Shown in pieces: positions 34,448 to 54,497 of a stretch of 64,000 nucleotides of DNA. The position numbers and the translations under genes are program-made. The stretch comes from Nitrospirota bacterium (GTDB lineage Bacteria > Nitrospirota > Nitrospiria > Nitrospirales > Nitrospiraceae). The stretch spans positions 1 to 64,000 of the forward strand of contig SCVN01000020.1 in the NCBI GenBank assembly GCA_004296885.1, given 5' to 3'. The notes under the pieces are model-generated. The model ran no database searches. It was not told the origin of the DNA and saw only the letters and a list, made by a program, of their open reading frames with translations. Every line of letters starts with the position of its first letter. Within the stretch, counting starts at the first letter, position 1.

Positions 34448-37400
34448 ATGACAGCCTGGAGTCGGTCACACAGTCTCCAGCGTAAGATCATTACGGCCAT
34501 CGTAATGGTCGGTCTCCTGCCTCTGAGCCTCTCTCTCTTCCTGACCTACGTTGAAGAACGCCGCGCTCTCCGTGAGAGTGTCGGAGCCAATTTCAAGGAA
34601 TCGGCAGTAGAAGCGGCGCGCCGGGTGGAAATGCAGGTCACCCGCGGTCTCAGCGAAGCGCAACAGCTGGCTGCGACCCCGTTCCTGCGGACGGCCGTGA
34701 CCGAGGCCAACCGAGGCTATGCGGACAAAGACGAGGCCAGCATCCAAGCCATGATCAAGGACTGGCAGCAGCAGTGGCGTCAGCGGGAGCGCCGCAACGA
34801 ATTCCCTCTGTTCATCAATCGCATCGTGACGAATTACCTGATCCGCTGGCATGACATTCGGCGCTCGGACTACGTGGGGATTTTCGTGACCGACGCGCGC
34901 GGAGCCTTGGTGGTCAGCTCGATTCCCCAGGTGGAATATTACTATGGCAAGAGTGCTTGGTGGCGGGCGGTATACAGCGGCGGGACCGGGCAGCAATACG
35001 TCGGCGAAATCTACTTCGATCCTTCTTTCGGCACCCATGTGCTGAATGTGTCGGTGCCGATTCTCGATGACGACCAGCGGGCTGCGGTTGGAGCTGTGAC
35101 GGTCCTGTTGCGGCGAGACTCGCTGTTCCAGGCGGTGGCGGAGATCACGGTCGGCCAGACGGGACATGCGATGTTGTTGGCTTCGGACGGGACGCTGTTG
35201 ATCTGTCCGGTCCTCCCCCCCGAGGAGCATTCGGTGACCCCGGCCTTGCTCCAATCCGTCGCCGATCTTCAGGCCGGATGGGTTGTGGCCGCCGATGACA
35301 CGCATGGCGGTCGCGAGGGCATTGTCGGATTTTCTCCTGTCCGCTTGGGCGGCAAGCTCGCTCCGGGAAGCCTCGATGGAAAACGATGGCTGACCGTCGT
35401 CCGGCAGAACCCGGAAGAAACCTATGCCCCGTTGAACCAACTGGTGATCAAGGTCGCCGCCTACGGGGTCTTGGTCTTCGCCCTGCTCTGGGGCACGGGC
35501 GTGCTTGCGGCTCGGCGGATTGTCCGCCCGGTCCAGGCTCTCCACGAAGGAGTCAAGCGGATCGGGACCGGCAATCTGGACCAGCGGCTGTCGCTGCAGA
35601 CCGGCGATGAAATCGAGCAACTGGCTGAGGCGTTCAACGGGATGGCTGCGAATCTGAAGGCCTCGTTCACCCAGTTGGAGCAGCGGATGGCGGATATCCG
35701 CAGGCTGGAGGAACGGTATCGAGATCTGATCGAGAACTCGCCGGAGATGATCCACCAGATTAACAAGGCGGGGCAGTTCGTGCATGTCAATCAGACCGAG
35801 CTGGACAAACTGGGCTATAGCCTGGAGGAGATGTTGGCGATGCGTCTGTGGGACATCGTCCCGCAGGGACGCGGGCCGGAAATCCTGGCCTACCTCGAAC
35901 GGATGGTGTCGAAGGGGCGGTCCACGATCGAAACGGTGTTTCTGAGCAAAGACGGCCGGCCGATCGACGTTGAAATCCACTCCACTGCGCTATTCGACAC
36001 CGAGGGCGGGGGCCTTGTGTACTCTCGTGCATTTGTGCGGGACATCACCCAACGCAAGGCGTTGGAACAGAAGGTCCAGCGGCATACAACCCAACTGGAG
36101 CAGGAAGTAGCCGAACGGACCCAGCAATTGTCGCTCTCGCAGAAACGGTATAAGGCGCTCTTCGACCTGGCAGCGGATCCGGTCTTCATGGTGGAATCAA
36201 ATGGCTGCATAATGGCGGTCAATCAGCGTGAAGAGCGAGTTCTGGGCTATCCGGAGGCCGATTTGATCGGCCGCCCGCTGCTCAATCTGATCTCTTCCCA
36301 CCATCAAGAACTCACGCGTGCCTTGATGGAGAAGATCGTACGAGGCGAGCAGCAAGTGCCCACGGAGGAAATCGAAGTGGTGGGCCGTGACGGTGCGCCC
36401 ATGCTGGTTGAGATGGACCTGATTCGGATCGAGGACGGCTCTGCGGTCTCCATCATGGTGCAACTCCGGGATATTACGGAACGCAAACGGTTGGAGCAGC
36501 AACTGCACGAGTACAGCGTGGAGCTCGAAGCCAAGGTCAAGGCCAGGACCAGGGAGATAGAGGAAACCAAGACTTACCTGGAAAATCTTCTCGAGAACGC
36601 GAACGATGTCATCTATACGTTGGATACGGAGCAGCGGTTCACCTATGTCAACAACAAAGTCGCCGCCTGGGGTTATCGCAAGGAAGATCTGATCGGCCGC
36701 CCTTACCTCTCGTTGCTTTCGAAGCGACACCGTGGGCGTCGTCTGAAGAGTACGCTGGATATCGGCGCCAAGCAGGTCTATGAGGTCGAGGTGCTGAGTT
36801 GTTCGGGGGATACGCGGACGGTCATGGTGAGCGTGTCGCCGCTTCACGATCCGGACGGCCGTATCCAGGGCGTCCTGGGTATTGCGCGGGACATCACCGA
36901 CACCAAGAAGCTGGAGCAACAGATACTCAATACCGAGAAGCTGGCGTCGGTTGGAAAGCTCGCCGCCGGTGTCGCCCATGAGATCAACAATCCGTTGGGC
37001 GGAATTCTCAACTGCTTGTACAACTTGCGCAAGGGGACGCTGTCGCCAGCCAGGCAGGAGGAATACGTGGTCTCAATGGAAGACGGGCTTCGGCGGGTCC
37101 AGAAGATCGTCCGGCAGTTGTTGGACTTTTCCCAACAGCACGAACCGGAGCTTTCTTCCACGGACATCAATGCGGTCGTCGAGCGTGTCTTGGTGCTCAC
37201 CGAGCATGTCTTTGTGGCCGGCCAGATCCGTCTGGACAAGCAGCTCCAGGCAGATCTGCCCGCTTTGATGGTGGATCAGCACATGCTCGAACAGGTCTTG
37301 ATGAACTTGGTCCTGAACGCGACTCAAGCGATCAAGGGCGGGGGAACTGTCACCATCCGGACCCGGGTCGTGGGCGAAGCCTGCGTGATCGAGGTGCAAG

Positions 37401-37627
37401 ACACGGGTTGCGGCATCCAGCCCCATGTCTTGTCGCGTATTTTTGACCCCTTCTTTACGACCAAGGGCGTGGGCGAAGGAACCGGTTTGGGCCTGTCCGT
37501 CAGCCTCGGGATCGTGGAACGGCATGGCGGCCAGATTCTGGTCGAAAGCGAGGTGGGGCAGGGAGCGCTGTTCACCGTGTCGCTTCCGCTTGTACGGGAA
37601 CGGGTCGCGACAGGGAGGATCGCATGA
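34448..37627 (+). CDS. Hybrid-free sensor histidine kinase with Cache-like, HAMP and three PAS domains
   Basis: This 1059-residue protein has a span near residues 16-33 and a periplasmic Cache-like domain (about 40-325). A second span (about 332-352) and HAMP (about 355-405) follow. Three PAS domains lie near 420-540, 565-690 and 712-825. HisKA carries the phosphoacceptor H844 (GVAHEINNPLGG), and a HATPase domain with DTGCGI and GTGLGLSV ends the protein. It senses an unknown periplasmic ligand plus possible redox or small-molecule cues through the PAS domains. It overlaps the response-regulator gene by 4 bases, so they are a cognate pair. The ribosome site is weak. Confidence 0.95.
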   Translation: MTAWSRSHSLQRKIITAIVMVGLLPLSLSLFLTYVEERRALRESVGANFKESAVEAARRVEMQVTRGLSEAQQLAATPFLRTAVTEANRGYADKDEASIQAMIKDWQQQWRQRERRNEFPLFINRIVTNYLIRWHDIRRSDYVGIFVTDARGALVVSSIPQVEYYYGKSAWWRAVYSGGTGQQYVGEIYFDPSFGTHVLNVSVPILDDDQRAAVGAVTVLLRRDSLFQAVAEITVGQTGHAMLLASDGTLLICPVLPPEEHSVTPALLQSVADLQAGWVVAADDTHGGREGIVGFSPVRLGGKLAPGSLDGKRWLTVVRQNPEETYAPLNQLVIKVAAYGVLVFALLWGTGVLAARRIVRPVQALHEGVKRIGTGNLDQRLSLQTGDEIEQLAEAFNGMAANLKASFTQLEQRMADIRRLEERYRDLIENSPEMIHQINKAGQFVHVNQTELDKLGYSLEEMLAMRLWDIVPQGRGPEILAYLERMVSKGRSTIETVFLSKDGRPIDVEIHSTALFDTEGGGLVYSRAFVRDITQRKALEQKVQRHTTQLEQEVAERTQQLSLSQKRYKALFDLAADPVFMVESNGCIMAVNQREERVLGYPEADLIGRPLLNLISSHHQELTRALMEKIVRGEQQVPTEEIEVVGRDGAPMLVEMDLIRIEDGSAVSIMVQLRDITERKRLEQQLHEYSVELEAKVKARTREIEETKTYLENLLENANDVIYTLDTEQRFTYVNNKVAAWGYRKEDLIGRPYLSLLSKRHRGRRLKSTLDIGAKQVYEVEVLSCSGDTRTVMVSVSPLHDPDGRIQGVLGIARDITDTKKLEQQILNTEKLASVGKLAAGVAHEINNPLGGILNCLYNLRKGTLSPARQEEYVVSMEDGLRRVQKIVRQLLDFSQQHEPELSSTDINAVVERVLVLTEHVFVAGQIRLDKQLQADLPALMVDQHMLEQVLMNLVLNATQAIKGGGTVTIRTRVVGEACVIEVQDTGCGIQPHVLSRIFDPFFTTKGVGEGTGLGLSVSLGIVERHGGQILVESEVGQGALFTVSLPLVRERVATGRIA

Positions 37628-39069
37628 AAGCTCCGTCGGTCTTGATCATCGACGACGAGCCCCTGATGCGGCTCTCGATGCTCGATGCGCTGAAGGCCGT
37701 CGGCTATGACGTGCGTGCGGCGGCTACGGGGCAGGAGGGCCAAGCCATCCTCGCCTCCAACACGTTTGACATCGTGATTACCGACCTTCGCCTGCCCGGG
37801 TCGGATGGATTGTCGTTGCTCCAGGTGTGCAAGCAGCGGTCGCCACGTTCCGAGGTGATCCTGATTACGGCGCATGGCTCGGTGGAAACGGCGGTCGAGG
37901 CGATGAAGCTGGGCGCATACGACTACGTCACCAAACCCTTTGGGATGGACGAGCTGTTGTTGATTGTGGACCGGGTTTCGAAGGTGTTGGCGCTGCGCCA
38001 GGAAAATTTGCAGTTGCGCGAAGAGCTGGAGGGACGGTTCAGCTTCGAGGGTATTCTCGGGAAGAACGATCGGATGCGGGAGGTACTGGAGAAGATCCAG
38101 CTGGTTTCGGCTACGGATTCAACCGTGCTGATTGTCGGGGAGAGCGGGACCGGGAAAGAACTGGTGGCCAATGCGCTGCACCGCAGCAGCCCGCGCCGCG
38201 ATCACGCACTGATCAAGGTGAGCTGCGCGGCCTTGCCGGAGACCTTGCTGGAGGCGGAACTCTTCGGGCACGAAAAGGGGGCGTTCACGGGTGCGCTCAA
38301 GCAGCGGAGGGGCCGTTTCGAACTGGCGCACAAGGGGACGCTGTTCCTGGACGAGATCGGCGAAATTTCTCCCGTAGTGCAGGTGAAGCTGCTGCGCGTG
38401 TTGCAGGAGCGGCAATTCGAACGGGTGGGGGGGAGCGAAACCGTCGAGGTGGATGTGCGGCTCGTCTGTGCCACGCAGAAAGATCTCAAGAAAGAGGTGC
38501 AACAGGGACGGTTTCGGGAAGACCTCTATTATCGCCTCAACGTCGTCCCGGTGATCTTGCCCCCGCTGCGCGAGCGTCGGGAAGATGTGCTGTTGATCGG
38601 CGAACACATGTTGCAGGCCCGCGCGGCGAAAACAAGTAAGCCCGTGAAGGGGTTTTCCCAGCGGGCCCAGGAGCTCTTGCTCCGCTACTCGTTCCCGGGC
38701 AACGTGCGCGAATTGGAAAACATGATCGAGCGGGCGGTCGCCCTGGGGCGTCCGGAGGAGGATGTACAGCCCTGGGATCTCTGCGGATTTTCCGCGTGCC
38801 CCTACTTGGGCGGGACGCAGCAGGAGACCTGCGGGTTTTGCAGCGAGGGTTTGACCGGCAAGCGGGCGACCAGCGCCATGCTGGACTCGCTGGCTTCGGC
38901 CAGAGAAGAGTTCGAGAAGGACTATATCCTGGCCGTGCTGGAGCGGGTCGGCGGAAGCCGGACGGAAGCGTCGCGGTTACTGGGGCTCTCCCGAAAAGCC
39001 TTGTGGGAAAAGTGCAAGCGCTATGGCATCCCCTCCGCGCGTAGCGAGGCGGACGACGAAGGCGAGTAG
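37624..39069 (+). CDS. NtrC-family sigma-54 response regulator with Cys-cluster linker
   Basis: This 481-residue protein has a receiver domain with phosphoacceptor D54 (VITDLRLPGSDG) and an AAA+ domain with Walker A GESGTGKE (172-179) and the sigma-54 contact loop GAFTGA (219-224). A Fis-type helix-turn-helix (about 440-475; GGSRTEASRLLGLSRKALWEK) follows. Between AAA+ and the helix-turn-helix lie C387, C392, C403 and C406 (C-x4-C-x10-C-x2-C), which could bind Zn or FeS or act as a thiol switch; classical NtrC lacks this. It activates sigma-54 promoters on phosphorylation by the kinase upstream. Its targets are unknown. Confidence 0.95.
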   Translation: MKAPSVLIIDDEPLMRLSMLDALKAVGYDVRAAATGQEGQAILASNTFDIVITDLRLPGSDGLSLLQVCKQRSPRSEVILITAHGSVETAVEAMKLGAYDYVTKPFGMDELLLIVDRVSKVLALRQENLQLREELEGRFSFEGILGKNDRMREVLEKIQLVSATDSTVLIVGESGTGKELVANALHRSSPRRDHALIKVSCAALPETLLEAELFGHEKGAFTGALKQRRGRFELAHKGTLFLDEIGEISPVVQVKLLRVLQERQFERVGGSETVEVDVRLVCATQKDLKKEVQQGRFREDLYYRLNVVPVILPPLRERREDVLLIGEHMLQARAAKTSKPVKGFSQRAQELLLRYSFPGNVRELENMIERAVALGRPEEDVQPWDLCGFSACPYLGGTQQETCGFCSEGLTGKRATSAMLDSLASAREEFEKDYILAVLERVGGSRTEASRLLGLSRKALWEKCKRYGIPSARSEADDEGE

Positions 39070-39500: not shown

Positions 39501-40601
39501 CTACTCCTGGGGCTCCGCCCCGCCTTCCCACAACTTCACGGTGCGGTCCCAAGAGGCGCTGAGCAGACGTTGTCCGTCAGGGGAGAAAGTGACGCCGCGC
39601 ACCGCTCCGGTATGGGCCTTCAACGTTCTGAAATGGCGGCCCGCGGCCAGGTCCCAGAGCTTGATCTGGTTGTCGTCCCCGGAACTGGCCAAGACCCGTC
39701 CGTCCGGCGACACGGCCAGGGACCGGACCCATCCCCCGTGGCCCTTGAGCGTCCGAATCTCGGTCATCTGGGGCATTTGGAAGAACTTGATCGTGGCGTC
39801 GCGGCTCCCGCTGATCAGCACCTGGCCGTCCGGCGTGAAGGTCAACGCGCCGATCCAATAGAGCATCGGTTTCTGGAACCCGCCCTCGTCCTCGACGAAG
39901 TACCCGCGATACTCGGTGGTGTCGTCGTCCTCGATCTCCTGCCAGTGGCCGTTGTGGAGGATCTTTTCTTCGCCGCTCGGAAGGACCTCCCAGAGCTTGA
40001 TCTTGCCGATGTCGGATCCGCTGGCTAAATGGAAGCCATCCGGGGAGAAGGCGACCACCGGAGACCAATGGTGGTCGAACTGATCCTTTCCGAGCAGGGT
40101 CATGAGTTCGGTGCCGGTGCTGATTTCCCAGATCTTGATGTCTTTGTTGTGGCTGCCCCGGGCGAGCATGAGCCCGTCGGGAGAGAGCGATAGGCTACAG
40201 ACGTTATGGTCGTAGCGCGTGAAGAGCAGCTTAGTGGGCTCCCCCGTCTTGGGGTTCCAGAGTCGAATGGTCCGGTCCTCACTGCCGGTGATCAGCGTCT
40301 GTCCGTCCGGGGTATAGAGGATGGCGCGGATGTCGTGGGTATGGCCGCGCAGGGACCGCAGCAGCCGTCCGGTTTCGATGTCCCAAATGCGGACCAGCCG
40401 GTCCGCGCCTCCGCTGGCAAAGGTGAGCCCGTCCGGCGAGAAGGCGACGGCCCAGATTCCGTGAGAATGGCCGCGGAACGTTTTCACCTCCCTGGTGCCG
40501 GCTTTCCAATATTCCAGGAGGTCGGCCGGCGGCGTCGATGTTCCAAGCGAGACTGAGCCTGGCTGGCTGCTGGAGGGGAGGGGCTGGGTCATTTCAGTCA
40601 T
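39501..40601 (-). CDS. WD40-repeat protein
   Basis: This 366-residue protein has about seven WD40 repeats, each with the VAFSPDG / LASGSxDxxIKLWD pattern, forming one complete propeller from about residue 35 to the C-terminus. It has no signal peptide and a Ser/Pro-rich N-terminus. Such propellers are protein-interaction platforms. The Shine-Dalgarno AAGGAGT precedes the ATG on the minus strand. It is divergent from the HExxH gene at 40837 and shares its promoter region. It is the largest gene on the minus strand in this window. Confidence 0.93.
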   Translation of the reverse strand: MTEMTQPLPSSSQPGSVSLGTSTPPADLLEYWKAGTREVKTFRGHSHGIWAVAFSPDGLTFASGGADRLVRIWDIETGRLLRSLRGHTHDIRAILYTPDGQTLITGSEDRTIRLWNPKTGEPTKLLFTRYDHNVCSLSLSPDGLMLARGSHNKDIKIWEISTGTELMTLLGKDQFDHHWSPVVAFSPDGFHLASGSDIGKIKLWEVLPSGEEKILHNGHWQEIEDDDTTEYRGYFVEDEGGFQKPMLYWIGALTFTPDGQVLISGSRDATIKFFQMPQMTEIRTLKGHGGWVRSLAVSPDGRVLASSGDDNQIKLWDLAAGRHFRTLKAHTGAVRGVTFSPDGQRLLSASWDRTVKLWEGGAEPQE

Positions 40602-40836: not shown

Positions 40837-41835
40837 ATGGAGATTCGATTTCAGCCCGCCCTTCTTCAGGAAGTCATTGACTCCTTCGTGGAGAAAACGG
40901 AGCGAGAGGGCGATCCGACCTACTACAAGGAGTTTCACGAACTGGCCGATCCCATCTATGAGAAATTCTCGTTGGATGACCGGGAGGCGGAGTTCAAAAA
41001 ACTATACCAGTATCTGTTCGGCACCTGGGGATTTTCGGACATCGTCCGGGATGCGTTCGACGAGTTCCCCCAGCTCAAGGAGCGCATCGGGATCGTCCTG
41101 ATCAAGGGGGTTCTGAAAGAGGACCAGGAGGGCGTCGACATCCTGAGAAAATGGGGCTCCGTCGAACAAGACCTGGCCAAGCAGTTCGAGGATAAGGGGC
41201 TCAAAGGAGTGGGGATCAAGTTGATCCCGCGTCGATTCTATGATCCGGCGCTGACCCGTTACTGCCGCCATGAACTCATGCACATCGCCGACATTCTGGA
41301 TGAAACCTTCGGCTACGACCCGGACACCAAAGTCGGGCAGAACCCGGGTGAAGAAACCCTGATCCTGCATCGCTACCGGGTGCTCTGGTGCCTGCACATC
41401 GATTCCCGACTGTTGCGCGAGGGGAAGGAGTCGATGCTGACCCGGGAGGACCGCTTCAAGGAATTCCGCTCCTGGTATCGCAAGATTCCTCCGGCGCAGT
41501 TGAAATCGGTATTCGAAGGACTGTGGCAGGCGGACCAGCTGACCCACGCGGAGCTCGTCGAGATGGCCACCGACACCCTGCGCGTCATGGACCGGGCACT
41601 GGATGTGGAGGGCGGGGAGCTTCCAGAGGTTCAGAATAAAGTCATGCTGATGCCGGGTTTCCCATGCCCGCTCTGTCGCTTTCCGACTTATTCATGGGTT
41701 GAGGATCTCGAGAATAAATTGGAAAAGCACGTATTGGATTTCATCCGGGACAATCATCCCGGGTGGGATACAGAGTTCGGAGCCTGCGATCGTTGCGTCG
41801 AAGTGTATAAACTTCGTGCCGACGGCGTGATGTGA
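40837..41835 (+). CDS. Uncharacterised HExxH protein with C-terminal zinc-ribbon-like motif
   Basis: This 332-residue protein belongs to no family I recognise. A helical N-terminal half is rich in Glu, Lys and Phe. RHELMHIADILDE carries H145-E146-x2-H149, the zinc-protease signature. Near the C-terminus C277/C280 (CPLC) and C317/C320 (CDRC) form a C-x2-C-x36-C-x2-C pattern like a zinc ribbon. There is no signal peptide, so it is cytoplasmic. Its stop overlaps the ferredoxin start (TGATG), and the TorD-like chaperone and NxrC follow, which points to a role in NXR assembly or quality control. HELMH could also be a chance helix; the third metal ligand is not obvious. Confidence 0.75.
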   Translation: MEIRFQPALLQEVIDSFVEKTEREGDPTYYKEFHELADPIYEKFSLDDREAEFKKLYQYLFGTWGFSDIVRDAFDEFPQLKERIGIVLIKGVLKEDQEGVDILRKWGSVEQDLAKQFEDKGLKGVGIKLIPRRFYDPALTRYCRHELMHIADILDETFGYDPDTKVGQNPGEETLILHRYRVLWCLHIDSRLLREGKESMLTREDRFKEFRSWYRKIPPAQLKSVFEGLWQADQLTHAELVEMATDTLRVMDRALDVEGGELPEVQNKVMLMPGFPCPLCRFPTYSWVEDLENKLEKHVLDFIRDNHPGWDTEFGACDRCVEVYKLRADGVM

Positions 41836-42461
41836 TGGGAGAAAAGCCCGTGGTTGCGGATCCGCAGTATGGCCGTCGTCATTTCCTCAAGGATTCCGTT
41901 CTGTCCGTCGCCAAGACGGCGCAGGAATTTGTCAAACATCGGGATGCGTCGCCGGAGCAAGCCAAGCCGGAGCCGGCTGCCAGAACCGACTGGCTTAGGC
42001 CGCCGGGTGCGGTCGCCGAGGCGCTTTTTCTTGAGCGATGCACCCGCTGCGGAGATTGTCTTAAAGTCTGTCCCTACGGCAGCATCAAGCCGGAACCCAA
42101 GTCCGGCACACCTGTGATCTTTCCGGATGAGACGCCGTGTCATCTCTGCGAGGACTTTCCTTGCATCAGCGCATGCGGAACCGAGGCTCTGCTCTCCGTG
42201 GCCGGCCGTGAAGAGGTCGCCATGGGGGTTGCCGTTGTGTCACATCGAATCTGTACTGCAGGCCAGGGCTGTCACGCCTGCGTTTCCCGTTGTCCCACTG
42301 AAGCGCTGGCCATGGATTTTGATTCGTTCCGTTTGGTGGTTATGAAGGAACGATGTGTGGGGTGTGGTCTCTGCGAGCAGACGTGCAAAACCGTGAATGA
42401 CAAGGTCGCCATCACGATCACACCGACACGGGTGTTGGCATCCGGTGGAGGCGCCAGATGA
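41835..42461 (+). CDS. NapG/NapF-like ferredoxin with four FeS cluster motifs
   Basis: This 208-residue protein has four Cys clusters: CTRCGDCLKVCPYG, CHLCEDFPCISACGTEA, CxxGQGCHACVSRCPTEA and CVGCGLCEQTCK, as in NapG/MauN-type proteins. The N-terminus holds YGRRHFLKD, a twin-arginine-like box, but the stretch after it (SVLSVAKTAQEFVKH) is only weakly hydrophobic, so real Tat export is doubtful. It may deliver electrons during assembly of the Mo enzyme. ATG 41835 overlaps the previous stop. Confidence 0.88.
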   Translation: MGEKPVVADPQYGRRHFLKDSVLSVAKTAQEFVKHRDASPEQAKPEPAARTDWLRPPGAVAEALFLERCTRCGDCLKVCPYGSIKPEPKSGTPVIFPDETPCHLCEDFPCISACGTEALLSVAGREEVAMGVAVVSHRICTAGQGCHACVSRCPTEALAMDFDSFRLVVMKERCVGCGLCEQTCKTVNDKVAITITPTRVLASGGGAR

Positions 42462-42630: not shown

Positions 42631-43596
42631 ATGAATACGAAGGAAAGCCAGCGGGGAGTAGCGGATTCTCTCGCAATGCCTGCTGGCTCCGTAGCCATCA
42701 AGGACTCACCTGCCGTTGAACGAGCGCTAGGGCGCAGCAAGCTCTACCTCCTGCTTTCCTGGAGCATGCTCTATCCGGAAGACGATGAGTTCCTGGATTA
42801 TCTGCAATCCGGGGAATTCGTGGAAGATGCGCGAACGGCGCTGGAAAGTCTCCGCCAGGGCTTGGAGGGAATGGGCGGAGAGCGGGCGCGGACGAAACTC
42901 GCAGCCGTCGCCAAGTCTCTGGACCAAGTCGAAGCCCTCGTGGCATCCGAATGCGTCAACTGGCAATTGAGTGACCTGCAAGCCGAGCACCGGCGGGTGT
43001 TCAGTAACGTGATCACCCTGGATTGTCCGCCCTACGAAACCCTCTTCGGCAACGATCACGTATTTGGCCAGGCCCATGTGATGGGCGATATCGCCGGCTA
43101 CTATCGAGCGTTCGGAGTCGAGCTCTCCAAGGATATCCATGAGCGCATGGACCATTTGAGCGTTGAGCTCGAGTTCATGCACTTTCTCGCCTACAAGGAA
43201 TCCTATGCCCGTTGTCACGATGGTGTCGATAAGACACAGATCGTGGTGGACGCGCAAAAAAAGTTTGTCAAGGACCACATCGGTCGGTGGGTTCCCCTGT
43301 TTTGCCGTATGTTGGTTAAAAAGGCGGACTCAGGGTTTTTCCGACATATGGCCGACTTCGGCTCCGACTGGATGGACTTTGAAGCGGCCTACCTTGGGGT
43401 TACCCCGCAGCCCTATTCCGAGGCCGATTATCGACCGGCCACATTTAATGCTCCTGAAGGCCAGACCTATGAGTGTGGCGCGCAAGATCAGGGGAACGAA
43501 CTGAACATCCTGCTCAATGAAGTGGGTGCGTCGTCCTTCTTGGATAAAGACAAGAATAAGGATAAAGATGAGGCTGGGCCTGTTGGCACGGCGTAA
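42631..43596 (+). CDS. TorD/NarJ-like chaperone for the nitrite oxidoreductase
   Basis: This 321-residue protein is longer than typical TorD (about 200) because of N- and C-terminal extensions; the tail is rich in Lys/Asp. The core (about 35-270) is all-helical. The family features are DCPPYETLFGNDHVFGQAHVMGDIAGYYRAFG (quoted in two parts in the family: PPYETLFG and GDIAGYYRAFG) and DHLSVELEFMHFLAYKE. Such chaperones bind the Tat signal of the Mo subunit and guide cofactor insertion. ATG 42631 was chosen over an upstream in-frame codon because the promoter would overlap the longer form. It is followed by NxrC. Confidence 0.9.
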   Translation: MNTKESQRGVADSLAMPAGSVAIKDSPAVERALGRSKLYLLLSWSMLYPEDDEFLDYLQSGEFVEDARTALESLRQGLEGMGGERARTKLAAVAKSLDQVEALVASECVNWQLSDLQAEHRRVFSNVITLDCPPYETLFGNDHVFGQAHVMGDIAGYYRAFGVELSKDIHERMDHLSVELEFMHFLAYKESYARCHDGVDKTQIVVDAQKKFVKDHIGRWVPLFCRMLVKKADSGFFRHMADFGSDWMDFEAAYLGVTPQPYSEADYRPATFNAPEGQTYECGAQDQGNELNILLNEVGASSFLDKDKNKDKDEAGPVGTA

Positions 43597-43685: not shown

Positions 43686-44639
43686 ATGAGAGTGGTGCAG
43701 ACACGCAACAAGAAAGTGGTGTTTGGCATTCTTCTCTCGGCGCTGGTCGTGGGCGTCATGTTGACGCTGGGTCAGGTGCCGCTGGCGGTGAGCCAGCCGG
43801 TTACGATCCCGGTGAAGGCCATCAAGGGCCCGATCCCCATGGACGGAGCCAATCCCATCTGGGAGGGAGTGCCGGGCGTAGTCATCCCGCTGAGCGGGCA
43901 GACGATCACGACGCCGATGCATCCGAACATTTCCGTGAAGTCCGTCTTCGTCAAGGCGGTCTCGAACGGAAAGGAGTTGGGCTTCCGCCTGGATTGGGCG
44001 GACCAGACCATGAACAATACGACGATCGGGCCGCAGGACTTCCGCGATCAGGCCGCGATCCAGTTCCCGGTGAATACCTCCGGGGCGCCGCCGTTCCAGT
44101 GCATGGGGCAGTCCGGCGGGACCGTCAACATTTGGCGGTGGAATGCGGAGTGGCAGAAGGACCTGGGCAAGGACAGCGCCGGGCTGTGGGACGTGGACGA
44201 CCAGTACCCGGGCATCTTCTGGGATTACTATTTTGAAGAGCCGGCGGGCGGCGTGACCTATCCGGATCGGATCGGCCGCAGCCTTGGGCCCTTCAATCCG
44301 GGCATCTGGTCCGGCAACATTATGTCCGATCCGACGCTGCGCGTGAGCTCCGTGGAAGACCTCAATGCCAACGGGTTCAGCACCTTGACCACTCAATCCC
44401 ACCAGGATGTGATTGGCAACGGCGTGTGGGAGCCGTCCGGTTCCGTCAAGGGCGGCTGCTGCACGGGCCCGACGTGGCGGATCGTGGTGAAGCGCGCGTT
44501 GACCACCAGCGATGCGAACGACGTCCAGTTCAAGGCCGGTGCCTCGGTCCCCGTGGCTTTTGCGGTCTGGGACGGCACCAACGTCGAGCGGAACGGCATG
44601 AAGGGCATCTCAACCTGGTTTACGCTGAAGTTGCCCTGA
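43686..44639 (+). CDS. nxrC: NxrC-like gamma subunit (haem b, ethylbenzene-dehydrogenase-gamma type)
   Basis: This 317-residue protein has a signal peptide or anchor (about 10-36). The beta-sandwich domain holds the haem b ligand candidates M140 (QCMGQ) and K306 (RNGMKGIS), the Met/Lys pair known from DdhC and EbdC. FRLDWADQT, VNIWRWNAEWQ and SSVEDLNANGFSTLT match gamma subunits of the DMSO-reductase type II group. It takes electrons from NxrB. The Shine-Dalgarno GAGAGGAGG is strong. It follows the chaperone gene and ends in its own terminator. Confidence 0.9.
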   Translation: MRVVQTRNKKVVFGILLSALVVGVMLTLGQVPLAVSQPVTIPVKAIKGPIPMDGANPIWEGVPGVVIPLSGQTITTPMHPNISVKSVFVKAVSNGKELGFRLDWADQTMNNTTIGPQDFRDQAAIQFPVNTSGAPPFQCMGQSGGTVNIWRWNAEWQKDLGKDSAGLWDVDDQYPGIFWDYYFEEPAGGVTYPDRIGRSLGPFNPGIWSGNIMSDPTLRVSSVEDLNANGFSTLTTQSHQDVIGNGVWEPSGSVKGGCCTGPTWRIVVKRALTTSDANDVQFKAGASVPVAFAVWDGTNVERNGMKGISTWFTLKLP

Positions 44640-44885: not shown

Positions 44886-46667
44886 GTGAAGATATCCCTG
44901 TTATTTCCACCAACCTGGCATCCGTCGCAGCCCTATTTGAGCCTTCCTTCTTTGACGGGGTTCTTGACCAAGGCCGGAGTCAAAAACGTCCGGCAGCGAG
45001 ACCTCGGAATCGAGGTACTGGACGCCGTTCTGACGCAGGAGTATGGGGCGGAAATCTACCAGCGGCTCGTTGACAAGGTGAAGAGGCTGGAGCAAGAGCG
45101 GACGGGGGAGGCAGGGCCTGGGAGTGCGGAACACTACACGCGCCTGGTCGAGTCCTTGGACCGTTTTCCATACCTGATCGACGCGATCGAGCCGGCCAAG
45201 GAGTCACTGCGGGGAGAAGAGTTTTATGACATCGAGCGATACCGCGAGTGTCTTTTCCTGATCGACAAGTGGTTGGAGCTCGTGTCCACGCTCTATTTTC
45301 CGACCCGGCTGACGGTAGTCGACAATCAGTTCAGCACATACTCCATCTACTCGTCCAAGGACCTGCTCAAGGCCATCCGTGACGAAGAGCAAAACCCCTA
45401 TCTGAGTCTGTTCCGCGACCGTTTCCTCCAGTCAATCCTGGTGGATCAGCCTGACCTGGTGGGGGTTTCGATCACGGCCACGAGCCAGATCATTCCAGGC
45501 CTGACCCTCTGCCGCCTTATCAAGGAAGCCAACCCGAACCTGCATCTGACGATCGGCGGCAGTATCTTCACCAGGCTGGTCGATAATCTGCGCCGGTGTC
45601 CGTGGTTGTTCGATCTGACCGACGACTTCATTGTCTTTGAAGGCGAAACGGCTCTGTTGGAGTTGGTCAATCAGCTTGATGGGAAGCGGGATTTTAGCAA
45701 GGTTCCGAACCTGATCCATCGCCAGAACGGCAAGATTACGGTCAACCAGCCGTTCTACTCTGAGAATATCAACGAGCTGCCGGCTCCGAACTACGATGGC
45801 TTTCCGCTAGGGCGGTACCTGTCTCCCAGCACGGTCCTGCCGGTGCAGTTCTCCCGAGGCTGTTACTATAAAGACTGCGCGTTTTGTGCGCTCACACTCG
45901 ACCACCAAAACTTCCGCCAGCGGGACCCAGGCAAGACCGTCGACGACTTGCAGTGGCTCTCGGCTCGCTACAACACGCAGTATTTTTTCTTCACCGACGA
46001 ATGTTTTGCCCTGTCGCCGACCAAACGCCTCTGTCAGCAGATGATCGACCGCCGCGTGAATTTCTCATGGACCTGCGAGATGCGATTCGAAAAAAATCTG
46101 TCGCGCGAGCTGTTGACGCAGATGCGCGATGCGGGTTGCCTCAAGATTGTCTTCGGACTCGAATCCTTCAATCAACGGGTAATGGATTTTATGAAAAAGG
46201 GGATTGCCCAGGCGAGCGTCCGGCGCATTACGGAGGACTGTCTCGATCTGGGGATCGCCATCCATTGCTATATCATCGCGGGCTTTCCGACCGAAACCGA
46301 GGCGGAGGCGATGGAAACGGCCAACTTTGTCGTTCACAACGAACGTCTTAACCAATCGTATGGGTTTTCCTGCCAGCCGTGCCTGTTTGATCTTGAAAAA
46401 GAAGCGCCTATCATGAGCGACCCAGGCAGTTACGGGATTCAGCGCATCATGCGGCCGGCCTCGGAGGACCTCAGCCTTGGGTTTTTCTATGAAGTCAAGG
46501 AAGGCATGACGCCGGAACAGGCCGAACGGGTCTACCAGGAGATTTACGGGAAGATCAGCGAGGTTGTCTGCGAGTTGCCGTTTAATTATTCGATGGCGGA
46601 CGGTCTCCTCTACATTGCCCGGGAAAAGGCCAAAGTTCAGCGCGTTCCCTTGCCTGCCGGTTCCTAA
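44886..46667 (+). CDS. B12-binding radical SAM protein
   Basis: This protein of 593 residues begins with GTG (MKISLLFPPTWHPSQPY), with an N-terminal cobalamin-binding-like domain (to about 230), a radical SAM domain (about 315-520) and a C-terminal helical part. The cluster motif is C326-x4-C331-x2-C334 (SRGCYYKDCAFC), one residue longer than the usual Cx3Cx2C, as in some B12 enzymes and peptide-modifying enzymes. FGLESFNQRVMDFMKKG and CYIIAGFPTETE are typical of the family. The substrate is unknown; a precursor peptide was not seen nearby. It lies between the two NxrC genes. Confidence 0.88.
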   Translation: MKISLLFPPTWHPSQPYLSLPSLTGFLTKAGVKNVRQRDLGIEVLDAVLTQEYGAEIYQRLVDKVKRLEQERTGEAGPGSAEHYTRLVESLDRFPYLIDAIEPAKESLRGEEFYDIERYRECLFLIDKWLELVSTLYFPTRLTVVDNQFSTYSIYSSKDLLKAIRDEEQNPYLSLFRDRFLQSILVDQPDLVGVSITATSQIIPGLTLCRLIKEANPNLHLTIGGSIFTRLVDNLRRCPWLFDLTDDFIVFEGETALLELVNQLDGKRDFSKVPNLIHRQNGKITVNQPFYSENINELPAPNYDGFPLGRYLSPSTVLPVQFSRGCYYKDCAFCALTLDHQNFRQRDPGKTVDDLQWLSARYNTQYFFFTDECFALSPTKRLCQQMIDRRVNFSWTCEMRFEKNLSRELLTQMRDAGCLKIVFGLESFNQRVMDFMKKGIAQASVRRITEDCLDLGIAIHCYIIAGFPTETEAEAMETANFVVHNERLNQSYGFSCQPCLFDLEKEAPIMSDPGSYGIQRIMRPASEDLSLGFFYEVKEGMTPEQAERVYQEIYGKISEVVCELPFNYSMADGLLYIAREKAKVQRVPLPAGS

Positions 46668-46786: not shown

Positions 46787-47905
46787 ATGGCAGGGACAGC
46801 GGTTTCAGAGAAAGGGGGGGGGCGGCTTGAGGAACATGGGCTCCTCTTCGAATATACCGCCAAGTTTCTGCTGCTAGCCGGGTTTCTCGAGCTGCTCTTG
46901 TACCGCCTGGTTTCGCGCCTGGGTATGCATCTGAGCAAACTGGCGCAGAAATATGAGTCGGTGCGGATCACCCTCAAGACCCTGTCGTCTATCGGATTTA
47001 CTCTATTGAACCTCGTATCGATGCTGGTGTTTCTGGCCTTGTTCCTCCTGCTCCTCAACAAGAATCGCGGGGTAGGGAGCGGACGGTATGATGCGCTCTT
47101 GATTCCCTCCGTCTCCTTGCTGGTGCTGTTGACCGTCGCGTTCCTGTTCTTTCCCCCCACGATGCTCGGCTCGGTCCTCTACAATGCGGTCTTTGTCGCG
47201 GTGCTGGCCGTGCTCGTGGCCGAGCACCTGGCGGCCAACCACTCGTGGCCCCAGCGTGCCACGGTCCTGTGCTTTGTGCTGGGCATCGGCGGATGGCTCT
47301 ATTATCAGACGCTCTCCACAACCTATGGCTTGCTCAAGCTGGCTGCGGCCCCGCCGTTCGTGCACGAGATCAATCGGATCGGGGAGGCGCTCATGGTTCT
47401 GGCCAGCATTTTGGTGTTCTGGGCCTATGGCGCGACGCCCCTGTGGACCAGCAACAGGAGGCAACGTCGCCGGGCCGCAATCTTTGCGCTGGTCGGCGGC
47501 AGTGTGTTCCTTGGGCTACTGGGTCTTGACTATATACTGGGGCTCTATGACCCGACCGTGGCGGAAAGTGTTCGCAAGGCTGGCGAGGGGATCGGGTGGA
47601 TCTTTCAAATGGGCATGGGCTACACCTTTTACCTGCCCTTCGCCTTCTATGTGGCGGGCCTGTTGTGTTGGGGCTATACGGTCATCAAGTTGCTGACCAT
47701 CGGACGTCTGGCTGGATACGGGTTGGGACTGATGTTTATCGCCGGCTACGCCTTGCAACTCTCGCATTTGACCCTTATGGTGGTGCTCGGGCTGATGCTG
47801 CTGAATTTGGACAAGCGTCGAGGCATGGCGCCGGCCGGCGAGACGGGGCTTGCAGAAGGGTTGCTCCCGCAAGCGACAGGGACATTGCTCAGTGAACGAA
47901 CCTAA
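46787..47905 (+). CDS. Polytopic membrane protein of unknown function
   Basis: This 372-residue protein has about ten membrane spans. An amphipathic helix near residues 20-60 links the first two, and later spans carry Trp/Tyr-rich ends. The tail is short and polar. I recognise no family. It is transcribed with the TPR gene 23 bases downstream and then tatA, from a clear promoter. Being in the NXR accessory region, it could be a membrane partner of NxrC or of export, but nothing in the sequence shows it. Confidence 0.75.
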   Translation: MAGTAVSEKGGGRLEEHGLLFEYTAKFLLLAGFLELLLYRLVSRLGMHLSKLAQKYESVRITLKTLSSIGFTLLNLVSMLVFLALFLLLLNKNRGVGSGRYDALLIPSVSLLVLLTVAFLFFPPTMLGSVLYNAVFVAVLAVLVAEHLAANHSWPQRATVLCFVLGIGGWLYYQTLSTTYGLLKLAAAPPFVHEINRIGEALMVLASILVFWAYGATPLWTSNRRQRRRAAIFALVGGSVFLGLLGLDYILGLYDPTVAESVRKAGEGIGWIFQMGMGYTFYLPFAFYVAGLLCWGYTVIKLLTIGRLAGYGLGLMFIAGYALQLSHLTLMVVLGLMLLNLDKRRGMAPAGETGLAEGLLPQATGTLLSERT

Positions 47906-50420: not shown

Positions 50421-50511
50421 ACCCCTGCCTCCGTCGGATGGGCCTGGTTGTCCGTCCGTGAGAGGCGCGCCGTTCCCACAACGGCTGTCCATCTGGAAGC
50501 GAGGCGTCGGT

Positions 50512-51360
50512 ATGGCGCGATTCGAGCGAGCTTGGGGTCGGCAAGGTCGGATAGCCTCGATCGTTCCGTTGTTCGCCGGGCTCCTCGCAGGTGCGGCGGT
50601 GCTTGGGTGGCTGGGGATTCCCGTTGTCAGTTCCGAAGGTCTCTTTGTTCGGTCCTACCTGATTGCCGGTGATGTCCCTTCCGCCCCGGAAGATTTAGCC
50701 TGGGAGAAGGTCCCGCCGTTGACGCTGCCGTTGAGCGGGCAAGTGATCACGAGGCCCGTCTGGCCTGAACCCAGTGCCAGGGCTCTGGGGGTCCGGTCTG
50801 TCCACAACGGCGTCGAGATTGCGTTCCTGCTGGAATGGCAGGACAACACAAAGAACGATCGGTTGACCCCTGGCACGTTCCGAGACGGCGTGGCGATCGG
50901 GCTCCCGCTGGGGGAGGCGCCCGCCTTTTTCTGCATGGGCCAGCTCGATCACTACATCAACATCTGGCACTGGAAGGCCGACTGGCAGAGCGACATCGAC
51001 CGGCGGGCCGCCAAGGCTGCCGAGCGCAAGGGAGAAAGCGGGGAAGTCCGGCGATTCGAGGTCATTCCCCGCCGAGCCTCCTCCGTTGAAGACCTGGTCG
51101 GCGGCGGCTTCAGTACCCTGACCAGCAAGCAGTCACAGGGGCGGGTGCAAGGCAAGGCCATCTGGAAGGATGGGGTCTGGCGTGTGGTCATCAGGCGGCC
51201 GTTGGCCAGCACCGATCCGGAAAATGAAGCCAGGTTGGAGCCGGGTCGCTTGCAAGCCGTTGCCTTTGCGGTGTGGAACGGCGAGAACAAGGAGCGCAAC
51301 GGGCAAAAGGCCGTGGCGCCCTGGTTCCAACTCTCCATCGATCCCACGGTGAAGCTGTGA
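50512..51360 (+). CDS. nxrC: Second NxrC-like gamma subunit
   Basis: This 282-residue protein has an N-terminal span (about 15-37), then the same domain as the protein at 43686. M142 (FCMGQ) and K266 (RNGQKAVAPW) are the haem b ligand candidates; INIWHWKADWQ and SSVEDLVGGGFSTLTS are shared. It is about 35 residues shorter, lacking the middle loop that in the first copy holds YPGIFWDYYFEE. ATG 50512 was chosen with GAGG before it. It may be an alternative gamma subunit for another NXR copy or condition. Confidence 0.88.
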   Translation: MARFERAWGRQGRIASIVPLFAGLLAGAAVLGWLGIPVVSSEGLFVRSYLIAGDVPSAPEDLAWEKVPPLTLPLSGQVITRPVWPEPSARALGVRSVHNGVEIAFLLEWQDNTKNDRLTPGTFRDGVAIGLPLGEAPAFFCMGQLDHYINIWHWKADWQSDIDRRAAKAAERKGESGEVRRFEVIPRRASSVEDLVGGGFSTLTSKQSQGRVQGKAIWKDGVWRVVIRRPLASTDPENEARLEPGRLQAVAFAVWNGENKERNGQKAVAPWFQLSIDPTVKL

Positions 51361-51893: not shown

Positions 51894-51923
51894 TCGTTGC
51901 CCGAGCGGGGCTGCGGAGTACGT

Positions 51924-53219
51924 ATGGTACGGATGCCTAAGTTGGCGATCGTGGCGATGGTGGCCTGTGTCGTGGCCCTCAACGCCCTCTACCATGATCG
52001 GGCGGTGGCCCAGAAGGCGGAGAGCCATCCGGCAAGCCCCTGGGTAGCCGAGATCGAACAAGTCTTTATCCGATCCGAGGATTGCAAACAGTGCCATGAT
52101 CGTCACTATGAAGAATGGAAAGGCATGCGCGAGCAAACTCCCGATCTGAAGACGTTCGGACGCGTCGATGCCGCCCTGCTCCACGGAACGTCTCTCGAGT
52201 CACCCGTCTTCAAGACCGTCCTCGGGCTCTGGCTGCAGACTAATCCCACGGCCGAGGAGCGGACCCGCTGCCTGTCTTGCCATGTGCCGGCGGTCACGGT
52301 TTTTCCGCAACACACGGACAAGATCAGCCAGCAAGTGCTCTCCGGCAAGGTGGAAGTCGAAGGGATCAGCTGCGCCTCGTGCCACCTCATCAACGGCGTG
52401 TCCGGGGCGCCAGCCAACCCGCCGACCTTCAAGTTGCAGCCGGGCAAGATGATGTATGGGCCGTACGCGGAGCCGGAGGAGAACCTGGTCCATCCGGCGA
52501 GCCAATCGGACCTGTATCGCGGGGCCAACTATTGCGCCTCATGCCACTTCGATAAGGTCAAGGACGTGACCAAGCGAGAGTTGCCCGGCGAGATCCTGCA
52601 AGGCACCATCTGTCAGGATTGCCACATGGAGCCTTCGACCGGCAGTTCGACCTCGAAGCGCGGGGCGATGACCAGATCCATCGGCCGGCACTGGTTCCGT
52701 GGCGTGGTGATCCCCGGCATTATGTTGAAGAACCGCAATCTGCAAGCCGAATGGATGCCCCGTGTGGATGTTGAAGCGACTAAGTCTCAAGTCTCCGTGG
52801 ACGGGACTGTCTTGGTGCGGACGGGCAGTCTCCCGCACAGCTTTCCGGATGGAGACCCGGTGCTCAAACAATTCCTGGTGACGATCACGATCAAAAATGC
52901 GCAGGGGCAGGTGTTGGCCAGCGAACAGAAGCGCTTTGGGGTGCCGTATGAACAAATATTGAGAGGACCCATTCCGGAGCCCTTGGTGCGCGGAGGGACT
53001 ACGAAACGCGTGCCTTTCACCCTGGCGTTGCCTGCCGGGGCCGTTCCTGCCACGGTGGAGGCGTTGCTCTCCTATGCGTTGATTCCGGAGCCGAGCCCGG
53101 AGCTGAAAAAAAAGTACCTGGCGACGTTGCCTGGGGAGAAGGAACGGGCGGCTGCCGTCAAGTTGCTTGAGGACTATGCGCAAGCACGGGTGCTGACCTT
53201 TCGCAATAAGGCTCTATAA
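51924..53219 (+). CDS. Pentahaem cytochrome c with C-terminal beta domain, copy 1
   Basis: This protein of 431 residues has a signal peptide (about 1-30, ending RAVAQ), five haem sites (CKQCH from C54, CLSCH, CASCH, CASCH, CQDCH) within the first 240 residues and extra His as possible sixth ligands. A beta-sandwich of about 170 residues follows. It is related to cytochrome c554 / NapC-NrfH-like multihaem proteins in spacing, but lacks their exact motifs. It is periplasmic and could connect NxrC to other carriers. A paralogue follows immediately. Confidence 0.9.
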   Translation: MVRMPKLAIVAMVACVVALNALYHDRAVAQKAESHPASPWVAEIEQVFIRSEDCKQCHDRHYEEWKGMREQTPDLKTFGRVDAALLHGTSLESPVFKTVLGLWLQTNPTAEERTRCLSCHVPAVTVFPQHTDKISQQVLSGKVEVEGISCASCHLINGVSGAPANPPTFKLQPGKMMYGPYAEPEENLVHPASQSDLYRGANYCASCHFDKVKDVTKRELPGEILQGTICQDCHMEPSTGSSTSKRGAMTRSIGRHWFRGVVIPGIMLKNRNLQAEWMPRVDVEATKSQVSVDGTVLVRTGSLPHSFPDGDPVLKQFLVTITIKNAQGQVLASEQKRFGVPYEQILRGPIPEPLVRGGTTKRVPFTLALPAGAVPATVEALLSYALIPEPSPELKKKYLATLPGEKERAAAVKLLEDYAQARVLTFRNKAL

Positions 53220-53273
53220 GCAAGGCCCGCGGCGTCAAAAGATGTGAGGGAGCGTGGAGTGGGGATAAGATTC

Positions 53274-54497
53274 ATGCGAAAGATCAGGCCGATCTTGACC
53301 GTTCTCGGGCTGCTGGCTTTCGTGGCGATCTCGGGTCACGGGGCGATGGGGCTGGCCGAGGAACCGTCGAAAACGAAGGGGGCCTTGGAGAAGGTTTTCC
53401 CGAACTCGAACAAATGCAAACGTTGTCATGAACGGGTCTTCGAGGAGTGGGAAACGTCGCCCCTCTCGCGCTCTATTCATTCGCCCGCTTTTCGTGCCTC
53501 GCTGGATGAGTACCTGACCTTTTCAGTCGGCAAGGATAAGGCGCTGTGCTTTCGCTGCCACGCGCCCCACGTCAGTGAATTCGTCGATCAGGCGCCCATG
53601 TTCGTGGCACAAGTCCAGTCCGGAGATCCGGTCATCGACGGAGTGGGTTGCACCCAATGCCATCTGATCAAGCAAGTCGATCGGAGCAGCCATCCGCCCG
53701 TGCCGAAGTACGAGCCGGGCAAGACGCTCTATGGCCCGTACAAGGATTTCGTCCAGAACTTGGCCCACCAGTCCATGGAGTTGGAGCTGTTCCGCAAGTC
53801 AGACCTCTGTATGAACTGCCACCAGTCCGTGCCGGCTTCGGCCAACTTGGGCAAGTCGACCGAGCTGTTGGGGCCATGGGAAGGCAGCCAGGCGGTCAAA
53901 GGCGGCAAAGAATGTCAGACCTGCCACATGCCGGAGCAAGTCGGGGAGTCGGCGAACGGCGAGAATAAGCGCAAGGTGGCCAACCATTCGTTCCCGGGCC
54001 GGATCGGGAAGCTGCGGCAGGAGGCGGCGAAGCTGGCTCTGGAGACCTCTGTCAAGGGAGAGCAGACCAGCGTGGTCGTGACCGTTCAAAGCCTGGTGCC
54101 CCATAACCTCCCGACCACCCATCCGGCCTGGGCCAAGGTGGTGCTGGAGCTGGCAGTGAAGGGCAAGAATCTCAAGACCGTCTATACGGGCCAGCGGGTC
54201 TACGGACGTGTGTTCGCGGATGCCAAGGGACAGAAAACGTTGTTTGACTTCAAGGCCACGAAGGTGCTGGAAGATACGGTGCTGAAGCCGGAAGAGACGC
54301 GGACGGAGACCTTCACGTTCCCGACTCCAAAGGATACCCGGTCGTTCGACGTCGAGGTGTCGTTGAGCTATGCGCCGGTGACAGGGCCGCCGGAGTTCCT
54401 CCAGCGGGTCGAGGCGGAGTCTCCCAAGGGAGCCCAGGATCCGGTGTTCCAGCCGATCCCGATCGTGAAGCAGGCGCTGAATGTGCCGTTGAAGTAA
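53274..54497 (+). CDS. Pentahaem cytochrome c with C-terminal beta domain, copy 2
   Basis: This protein of 407 residues has a signal peptide (about 1-27). Haem sites are CKRCH (from C48), CFRCH, CTQCH, CMNCH and CQTCH, then a beta-sandwich with VPHNLPTTHPAWAKV. The haem order and the KxEPGKTLYGPY segment match copy 1 (KLQPGKMMYGPY), so they are tandem duplicates that have diverged. ATG 53274 was chosen. It is periplasmic, and probably part of the same electron route. Confidence 0.9.
   Translation: MRKIRPILTVLGLLAFVAISGHGAMGLAEEPSKTKGALEKVFPNSNKCKRCHERVFEEWETSPLSRSIHSPAFRASLDEYLTFSVGKDKALCFRCHAPHVSEFVDQAPMFVAQVQSGDPVIDGVGCTQCHLIKQVDRSSHPPVPKYEPGKTLYGPYKDFVQNLAHQSMELELFRKSDLCMNCHQSVPASANLGKSTELLGPWEGSQAVKGGKECQTCHMPEQVGESANGENKRKVANHSFPGRIGKLRQEAAKLALETSVKGEQTSVVVTVQSLVPHNLPTTHPAWAKVVLELAVKGKNLKTVYTGQRVYGRVFADAKGQKTLFDFKATKVLEDTVLKPEETRTETFTFPTPKDTRSFDVEVSLSYAPVTGPPEFLQRVEAESPKGAQDPVFQPIPIVKQALNVPLK

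Follow-up and report, generated by a model that had tools for sequence, protein, structure and literature searches.

An HExxH/zinc-ribbon protein that accompanies NXR in Nitrospirota, a candidate accessory factor for its maturation

The DNA analysed here, a stretch of 64,000 nucleotides from a Nitrospirota genome (the window), carries a gene of no known family next to genes for a ferredoxin, a TorD-like chaperone and an NxrC-like subunit (table 1). The question raised by this locus is what a protein with the HExxH signature of zinc proteases may do among the accessory genes of nitrite oxidoreductase (NXR), by which nitrifying bacteria oxidize nitrite. We consider it rather probable that it is a cytoplasmic, zincin-like accessory factor for the maturation or quality control of NXR. 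More tentatively, and with somewhat less than even confidence, it is proposed to be a metalloprotease dedicated to NXR, which would work together with TorD and the NapF-like ferredoxin and represent a class of assembly or quality-control factor not described before for molybdoenzymes. We know of no laboratory host in which active NXR has been obtained, nor of a defined set of accessory proteins required for it.

Table 1. Features of the locus, with positions in the window
Feature	Position	Strand	Basis
Sensor kinase (34448-37627) and NtrC-type regulator (37624-39069)	34448-39069	+	ORFs, upstream synteny
Divergent WD40 protein, upstream neighbour	39501-40601	-	PF00400, synteny
HExxH/zinc-ribbon protein gene	40837-41835	+	ORF, 332 aa; no known family; 123 full-length homologues
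Codons H145-E146-L-M-H149, putative zinc site and catalytic Glu	41269-41283	+	H/E/H invariant, plus D152
Codons E172-E173, candidate third zinc ligand	41350-41355	+	Helix after the HExxH helix begins here (predicted helix 170-194)
Zinc-ribbon-like element C277-x2-C280-x36-C317-x2-C320, C-terminal	41665-41796	+	Four Cys invariant
NapF/NapG-like ferredoxin, four Cys clusters	41835-42461	+	NCBIfam NapG E 1e-32, NapF E 1e-17, below cut-off
TorD-like chaperone of type II DMSO-reductase enzymes	42631-43596	+	PF02613 E 2e-21; TIGR03482 E 6e-23, below cut-off
NxrC-like heme b subunit, ethylbenzene dehydrogenase gamma type (EB_dh)	43686-44639	+	PF09459 E 7e-28; TIGR03477 E 3e-42, below cut-off
B12-binding radical SAM protein, adjoins NxrC	44886-46667	+	Profile matches, synteny
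Membrane protein of the conserved cluster	46787-47905	+	Synteny in three families

The translated ORF contains HELMH at residues 145-149 and, towards the C-terminus, CPLC (277-280) and CDRC (317-320) separated by 36 residues, exactly as the first-pass annotation of this DNA had described. That annotation could not name the family, and the searches agree with it: no credible match to the protein was found in Pfam, NCBIfam, PHROGs or the sequences of the PDB. Relatives were also absent among viral contigs and plasmids. In a search of genome contigs, the best 80 of the 206 matches were all of the Nitrospira type, one of them located in a probably contaminated 'Bacteroidetes' bin. Shuffled versions of the protein produce an HExxH in 1.7% of the cases and the CxxC...CxxC pair in 0.04%. 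Because of the former, the motif is weak evidence when taken alone and its conservation is the stronger test. Neither a signal peptide nor a membrane helix was detected by hydropathy (19-residue maximum of 0.64 vs. 2.5 for NxrC), and since such a hydrophobic stretch is absent, the protein is predicted to reside in the cytoplasm. Divergent sigma-70-like promoters are located between the WD40 gene and the HExxH gene, and a sigma-54 site was sought upstream of the latter without a convincing match.

The conservation of the protein was followed in two alignments, one of 11 sequences (the most distant being 36% identical) and one of 33 rows. In the smaller alignment, no exception occurs at H145, E146, H149, D152, E172, E173, R179, W184, D189 and R191 or at any of the four cysteines; position 148 varies among L, M, T and V, and position 151 among A, F and S. 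The pattern RHExxHxxD is found in 123 out of 123 full-length homologues with variable residues in between, and the H, E and H of the motif are kept even in the distant relative from genome G034, which belongs to another class. Loss of H145, E146 or H149 in orthologues, which the first-pass annotation had named as evidence against its proposal, was not found in these homologues. E172 and E173 are invariant in all 33 rows of the larger alignment. In total, 84 of the 332 columns do not change, the 36%-identical relative included. In the most distant family of the Nitrospirales, the HExxH protein is ~73% identical to the copy of the window, compared with 53-57% for the ferredoxin and 56-62% for TorD. 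This identity is close to that of the radical SAM protein and lower than that of NxrC (82%).

The AlphaFold2 model, built from 33 sequences (mean pLDDT 87.6, pTM 0.70), shows strands followed by the HExxH helix (residues 139-154) and then by a helix (170-194) which starts at E172-E173. The gluzincin or minigluzincin fold that the first-pass annotation had suggested looking for was not recovered at a significant level by Foldseek, whose best match of any kind had an E value of 0.4. In the re-alignment with VIA, the top positions were taken by 4l7a (Z 4.2, rmsd 4.7, 151 aligned) and YbeY (Z 4.1), and the list includes selecase (4qhi, Z 3.9, rmsd 3.8, 95 aligned), thermolysin (1kei, Z 3.5), TTHA0227 (2ejq, Z 2.7) and, after thermolysin, M61, collagenase G, M1 and ACE. 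Zincins dominate the top of this list, with all Z values below 5. This enrichment is suggestive of a zincin-like fold in the model, which is not proven, because no Foldseek match was significant and no VIA match reached a Z of 5. HExxH proteins that are not proteases appear among the same weak matches, namely the YbeY nuclease (of zincin-like fold) and the HExxH domain of the ChlB oxygenase. A model of the core only (residues 60-258) was less informative and gave weaker and mixed matches, including ChlB-HExxH and FtsH, the probable reason being that its N-terminal strand is missing.

The modelled arrangement resembles the gluzincins (thermolysin) and the minigluzincins or mini-zincins (selecase and TTHA0227) in carrying the HExxH on one helix, with a sheet before it and acidic residues on the next helix. 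On the contrary, the protein of the window is larger, carries additional helices at its N-terminus and a zinc ribbon at its C-terminus, and shares no sequence similarity with them. A likeness to MtfA was also noticed, as in two MtfA relatives an HExxHxxD is followed further on by N(P/E)AE, to be compared with HELMHIAD and NPGE here; the spacing between the two motifs, however, is not the same. MtfA was rejected as a family assignment (Peptidase_M90, PF06167: no Pfam match in 33 members up to an E of 5, hhalign probability of 0.1% with a two-sequence profile), and so was SprT-like (PF10263), matched by only one of the 33 members at an E of 0.026.

Proteolysis, the activity proposed in the first-pass annotation, is plausible but weakly supported, on the basis of the intact HExxH and of the invariant Glu-Glu pair at a gluzincin-like spacing, the structural matches being enriched in zincins but weak. 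The accompanying comparison with hydrogenase proteases held as a functional parallel and failed as a shared domain. The [NiFe]-hydrogenase maturation endopeptidases (HycI/HyaD) are dedicated accessories of a single metalloenzyme, so that the likeness is one of analogy only. Their family is not known to be an HExxH zincin, and the protein matched no such family in Pfam (E up to 1) or NCBIfam.

The gene junction with the ferredoxin was described earlier as a fusion by overlap. The overlap exists: the stop codon TGA of the HExxH gene (41833-41835) and the ATG of the ferredoxin (41835-41837) share one base (TGATG). Since only the stop and the start overlap, the two genes abut translationally and are not fused, and in other genomes they are separated by 14 to 160 bases, a spacing that is not conserved. 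The ATG at 41835 is probably the real start of the ferredoxin, for which the ORF listing had a GTG at 41832. Its four Cys groups were confirmed. The scores remain below the cut-offs of both models (NapF 64 vs. 102 bits, NapG 113 vs. 269 bits). The N-terminus has an RR motif, low hydropathy and no hydrophobic signal region; judging from the sequence, an RR motif lacking the core of a signal peptide is as expected for a NapF-like protein.

Downstream of the ferredoxin, the TorD-like chaperone and the NxrC-like gene mentioned in the first-pass annotation are both present, as judged by their Pfam matches. This NapF/NapG-like and TorD-like pair recalls the NapF/TorD maturation of periplasmic molybdoenzymes, with the expected action before Tat export. 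In Rhodobacter, the Fe-S assembly of NapA before its export by Tat depends on NapF, a cytosolic protein with four clusters, and TorD-type chaperones assist the insertion of Moco (PMC10609526). A zincin-type partner of the Nap and Tor systems is not described in that review, whose text contains neither 'metalloprotease' nor 'zinc'.

The conserved cluster extends on both sides. Between NxrC and the membrane protein, the radical SAM protein has TIGR03975 (RiPP C-methyltransferase) as its nearest NCBIfam model, below cut-off, and is 72-86% conserved in every Nitrospirales locus that covers it; it is possible that it modifies a subunit of NXR or of a cytochrome. In one locus (L037), a similar-looking membrane protein follows the ferredoxin, recognized by eye with no tblastn match. 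Further downstream on the same strand, the cluster includes a second NxrC-like (EB_dh) protein (50458-51360) and two multiheme cytochromes c (51897-53219 and 53244-54497). On the 5′ side, the kinase, the NtrC-type regulator and the WD40 protein are syntenic in nearly all Nitrospirales loci that are long enough, and possibly regulate the cluster. The genes nxrA and nxrB lie outside the 64-kb window, and a match to nxrA at E ≤ 1e-30 was not found in the assembly of the window's genome, in spite of its complete accessory cluster. The missing nxrA is probably a collapsed multicopy gene, as multicopy nxr genes are known to assemble poorly (PMC12342949). The connection of this locus with NXR therefore rests on the conserved cluster and on comparative genomics.

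The cluster itself is already known. Lücker et al. (2013; PMC3578206) listed a gene set common to Nitrospira, Nitrospina and Kuenenia, including TorD, NxrC and 'one putative zinc finger' protein, and in N. moscoviensis the genes NITMOv2_3614-3631 are conserved with nitrite oxidation and encode several proteins of unknown function (PMC12342949). The latter region resembles the window in its NxrC and TorD (NITMOv2_3624 and 3625), the adjoining ferredoxin, the pentaheme cytochromes and the regulators (PMC12342949, PMC3578206, PMC6606698). Based on gene order, with the Nap-annotated gene at 3626, the HExxH gene should be NITMOv2_3627, for which these three papers give no function, motif or fold. 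In the open-licence literature searched, neither the HExxH protein nor a protease for NXR is described. Three points appear new: a metal site is predicted for this protein, its co-occurrence sharply sets NXR apart from NxrA-like clusters, and a distant relative exists in a different class.

The co-occurrence was surveyed in 396 Nitrospirota genomes with the NxrA of N. defluvii as the query for NXR; TIGR03479 was dropped as an NXR marker, as the NxrA of Nitrospira scores poorly with it. Within the window's order, 138 out of 144 genomes have the HExxH gene, in a few of them broken by the assembly; counted over its NXR-bearing families, the figure is 138 out of 141. The three misses within these families do have nxrA. 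In one of them the NxrC locus is missing altogether, and in two a contig ends beside the expected site of the gene; all three are assembly gaps. The remaining family of the order (f34, three genomes) has neither the HExxH gene nor NxrA and NxrC. By comparison with PMC12342949, it is probably UBA2166, the only family of the order without NXR.

Outside the order, a full-length gene was found in one of the 252 genomes, that is, G034 (77% complete). There a contig break splits the gene, the two ends being identical where they overlap, and the joined protein served as a search row only. The first piece has the order NxrB-TorD-NxrC-(5′ half) and the second (3′ half)-ferredoxin-membrane protein, which differs from the order of the window. 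The NxrB of G034 is 69.7% identical to that of N. defluvii, compared with 40-46% for the NxrB-like proteins elsewhere in the phylum; NxrA was not found in this incomplete genome. The presence of the same partners in a rearranged order suggests that the linkage of the HExxH gene has itself been selected.

Nine clusters of the phylum (L140-L148) contain an NxrA-like protein (37-41% identity, tblastn) together with NxrB, NxrC and TorD. None of these neighbourhoods encodes the HExxH protein, and their genomes are also devoid of it, except for G335. This Nitrospiraceae genome has an NxrA-like cluster (L147) plus an HExxH locus on another contig; the other eight clusters are from non-Nitrospirales. 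The gene is likewise absent from the Nitrospirota genomes in which an alpha subunit of type II DMSO reductases is clearly present. From these genomes it follows that the gene tracks the NXR-grade enzyme rather than the general distribution of type II molybdoenzymes, TorD or NxrC. The specificity for NXR put forward in the first-pass annotation is thereby well supported: within the Nitrospirota survey, the gene occurs only with an NXR-grade cluster, and a search for a full-length homologue in a genome without one returned nothing.

Because the gene is found almost only alongside true NXR in about 400 genomes of one phylum, its product is probably a dedicated helper of this enzyme. In the mechanism that we favour, the HExxH helix with its likely Glu ligand and the C-terminal zinc ribbon would form a metalloprotein that serves the periplasmic NXR and acts before NxrAB is exported by Tat, alongside the TorD-like chaperone and the NapF-like ferredoxin. 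The chaperone would insert the Mo-cofactor and the ferredoxin would deliver or check Fe-S clusters. As the third member of this assembly group, the HExxH protein may carry out a zinc-dependent hydrolytic step on an NXR subunit or an assembly intermediate, either for processing or for the disposal of misassembled enzyme. Being a near-perfect companion of bona fide NXR, it is a concrete candidate for an assembly factor that is still missing, and its gene could serve as a marker to tell true nitrite oxidizers apart from nitrate-reductase-like relatives. If the mechanism is true, few molybdoenzymes would have a helper of this type, and a metalloprotease would be required to build NXR, the maker of most of the world's nitrate.

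A serious alternative, which we nevertheless regard as rather unlikely, is a non-catalytic one. The protein would be a zinc-binding scaffold or cochaperone with a structural or regulatory metal site, holding NxrA/NxrB, TorD or the ferredoxin while the cofactors are loaded. To our knowledge, no cleavage of an NXR subunit that would require a protease has been observed. Moreover, the 84 invariant columns spread the conservation over the whole protein beyond the motif, which suggests extensive protein contacts, and the zinc ribbon is conserved to the same degree as the HExxH. A purely structural site, however, would not need the general base E146, which is kept in all 123 homologues.

The wider cluster also holds regulators, and for this reason the linkage of the HExxH gene does not single out maturation. 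The kinase, the NtrC-type regulator and the WD40 protein lie directly upstream in three out of three families, and together with the divergent promoters they would fit a metalloprotein with a role in regulation or in the stress response of the nitrite oxidizers' energy cluster, acting, for instance, by cleavage of a transcription factor or by redox sensing through the ferredoxin. This role is improbable in view of G034, which keeps NxrB, TorD, NxrC and the ferredoxin adjoining the gene, whereas the kinase and regulator of the window were not recovered beside it there and a regulator pair lies on another contig. It is very improbable that the protein is an ordinary lineage-specific one whose co-occurrence with NXR mirrors the shared descent of the Nitrospirales. 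The phylogenetic signal is indeed strong, with most matches within one order, but the sister family without NXR also lacks the gene and the genome from another class has it in a rearranged NXR-grade cluster. The maturation or quality-control role thus remains our preferred reading.

Two further copies of the gene look disrupted. In G105, the apparent disruption is an N-filled scaffold gap. In G212, a Nitrospiraceae genome whose nxrA is disrupted too, the gene is split into two parts of opposite orientation (C29, 20173-20577 on the + strand and 153043-153276 on the - strand), with residues 79-196 missing, which looks like a rearrangement or a misassembly and may be a true loss.

The zinc-ribbon part alone was found in four further genomes, within small proteins. 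These ribbon-only proteins of ~60 aa (one a tandem double) have the pattern CPxC...GxCxxCxxxY and no credible Pfam family. They are located at L133 (6923-7417), L134 (2150-2383), L164 (359-538), L040 (4986-5207) and L039 (4956-5444), the one of L134 being near DsrK-like genes.
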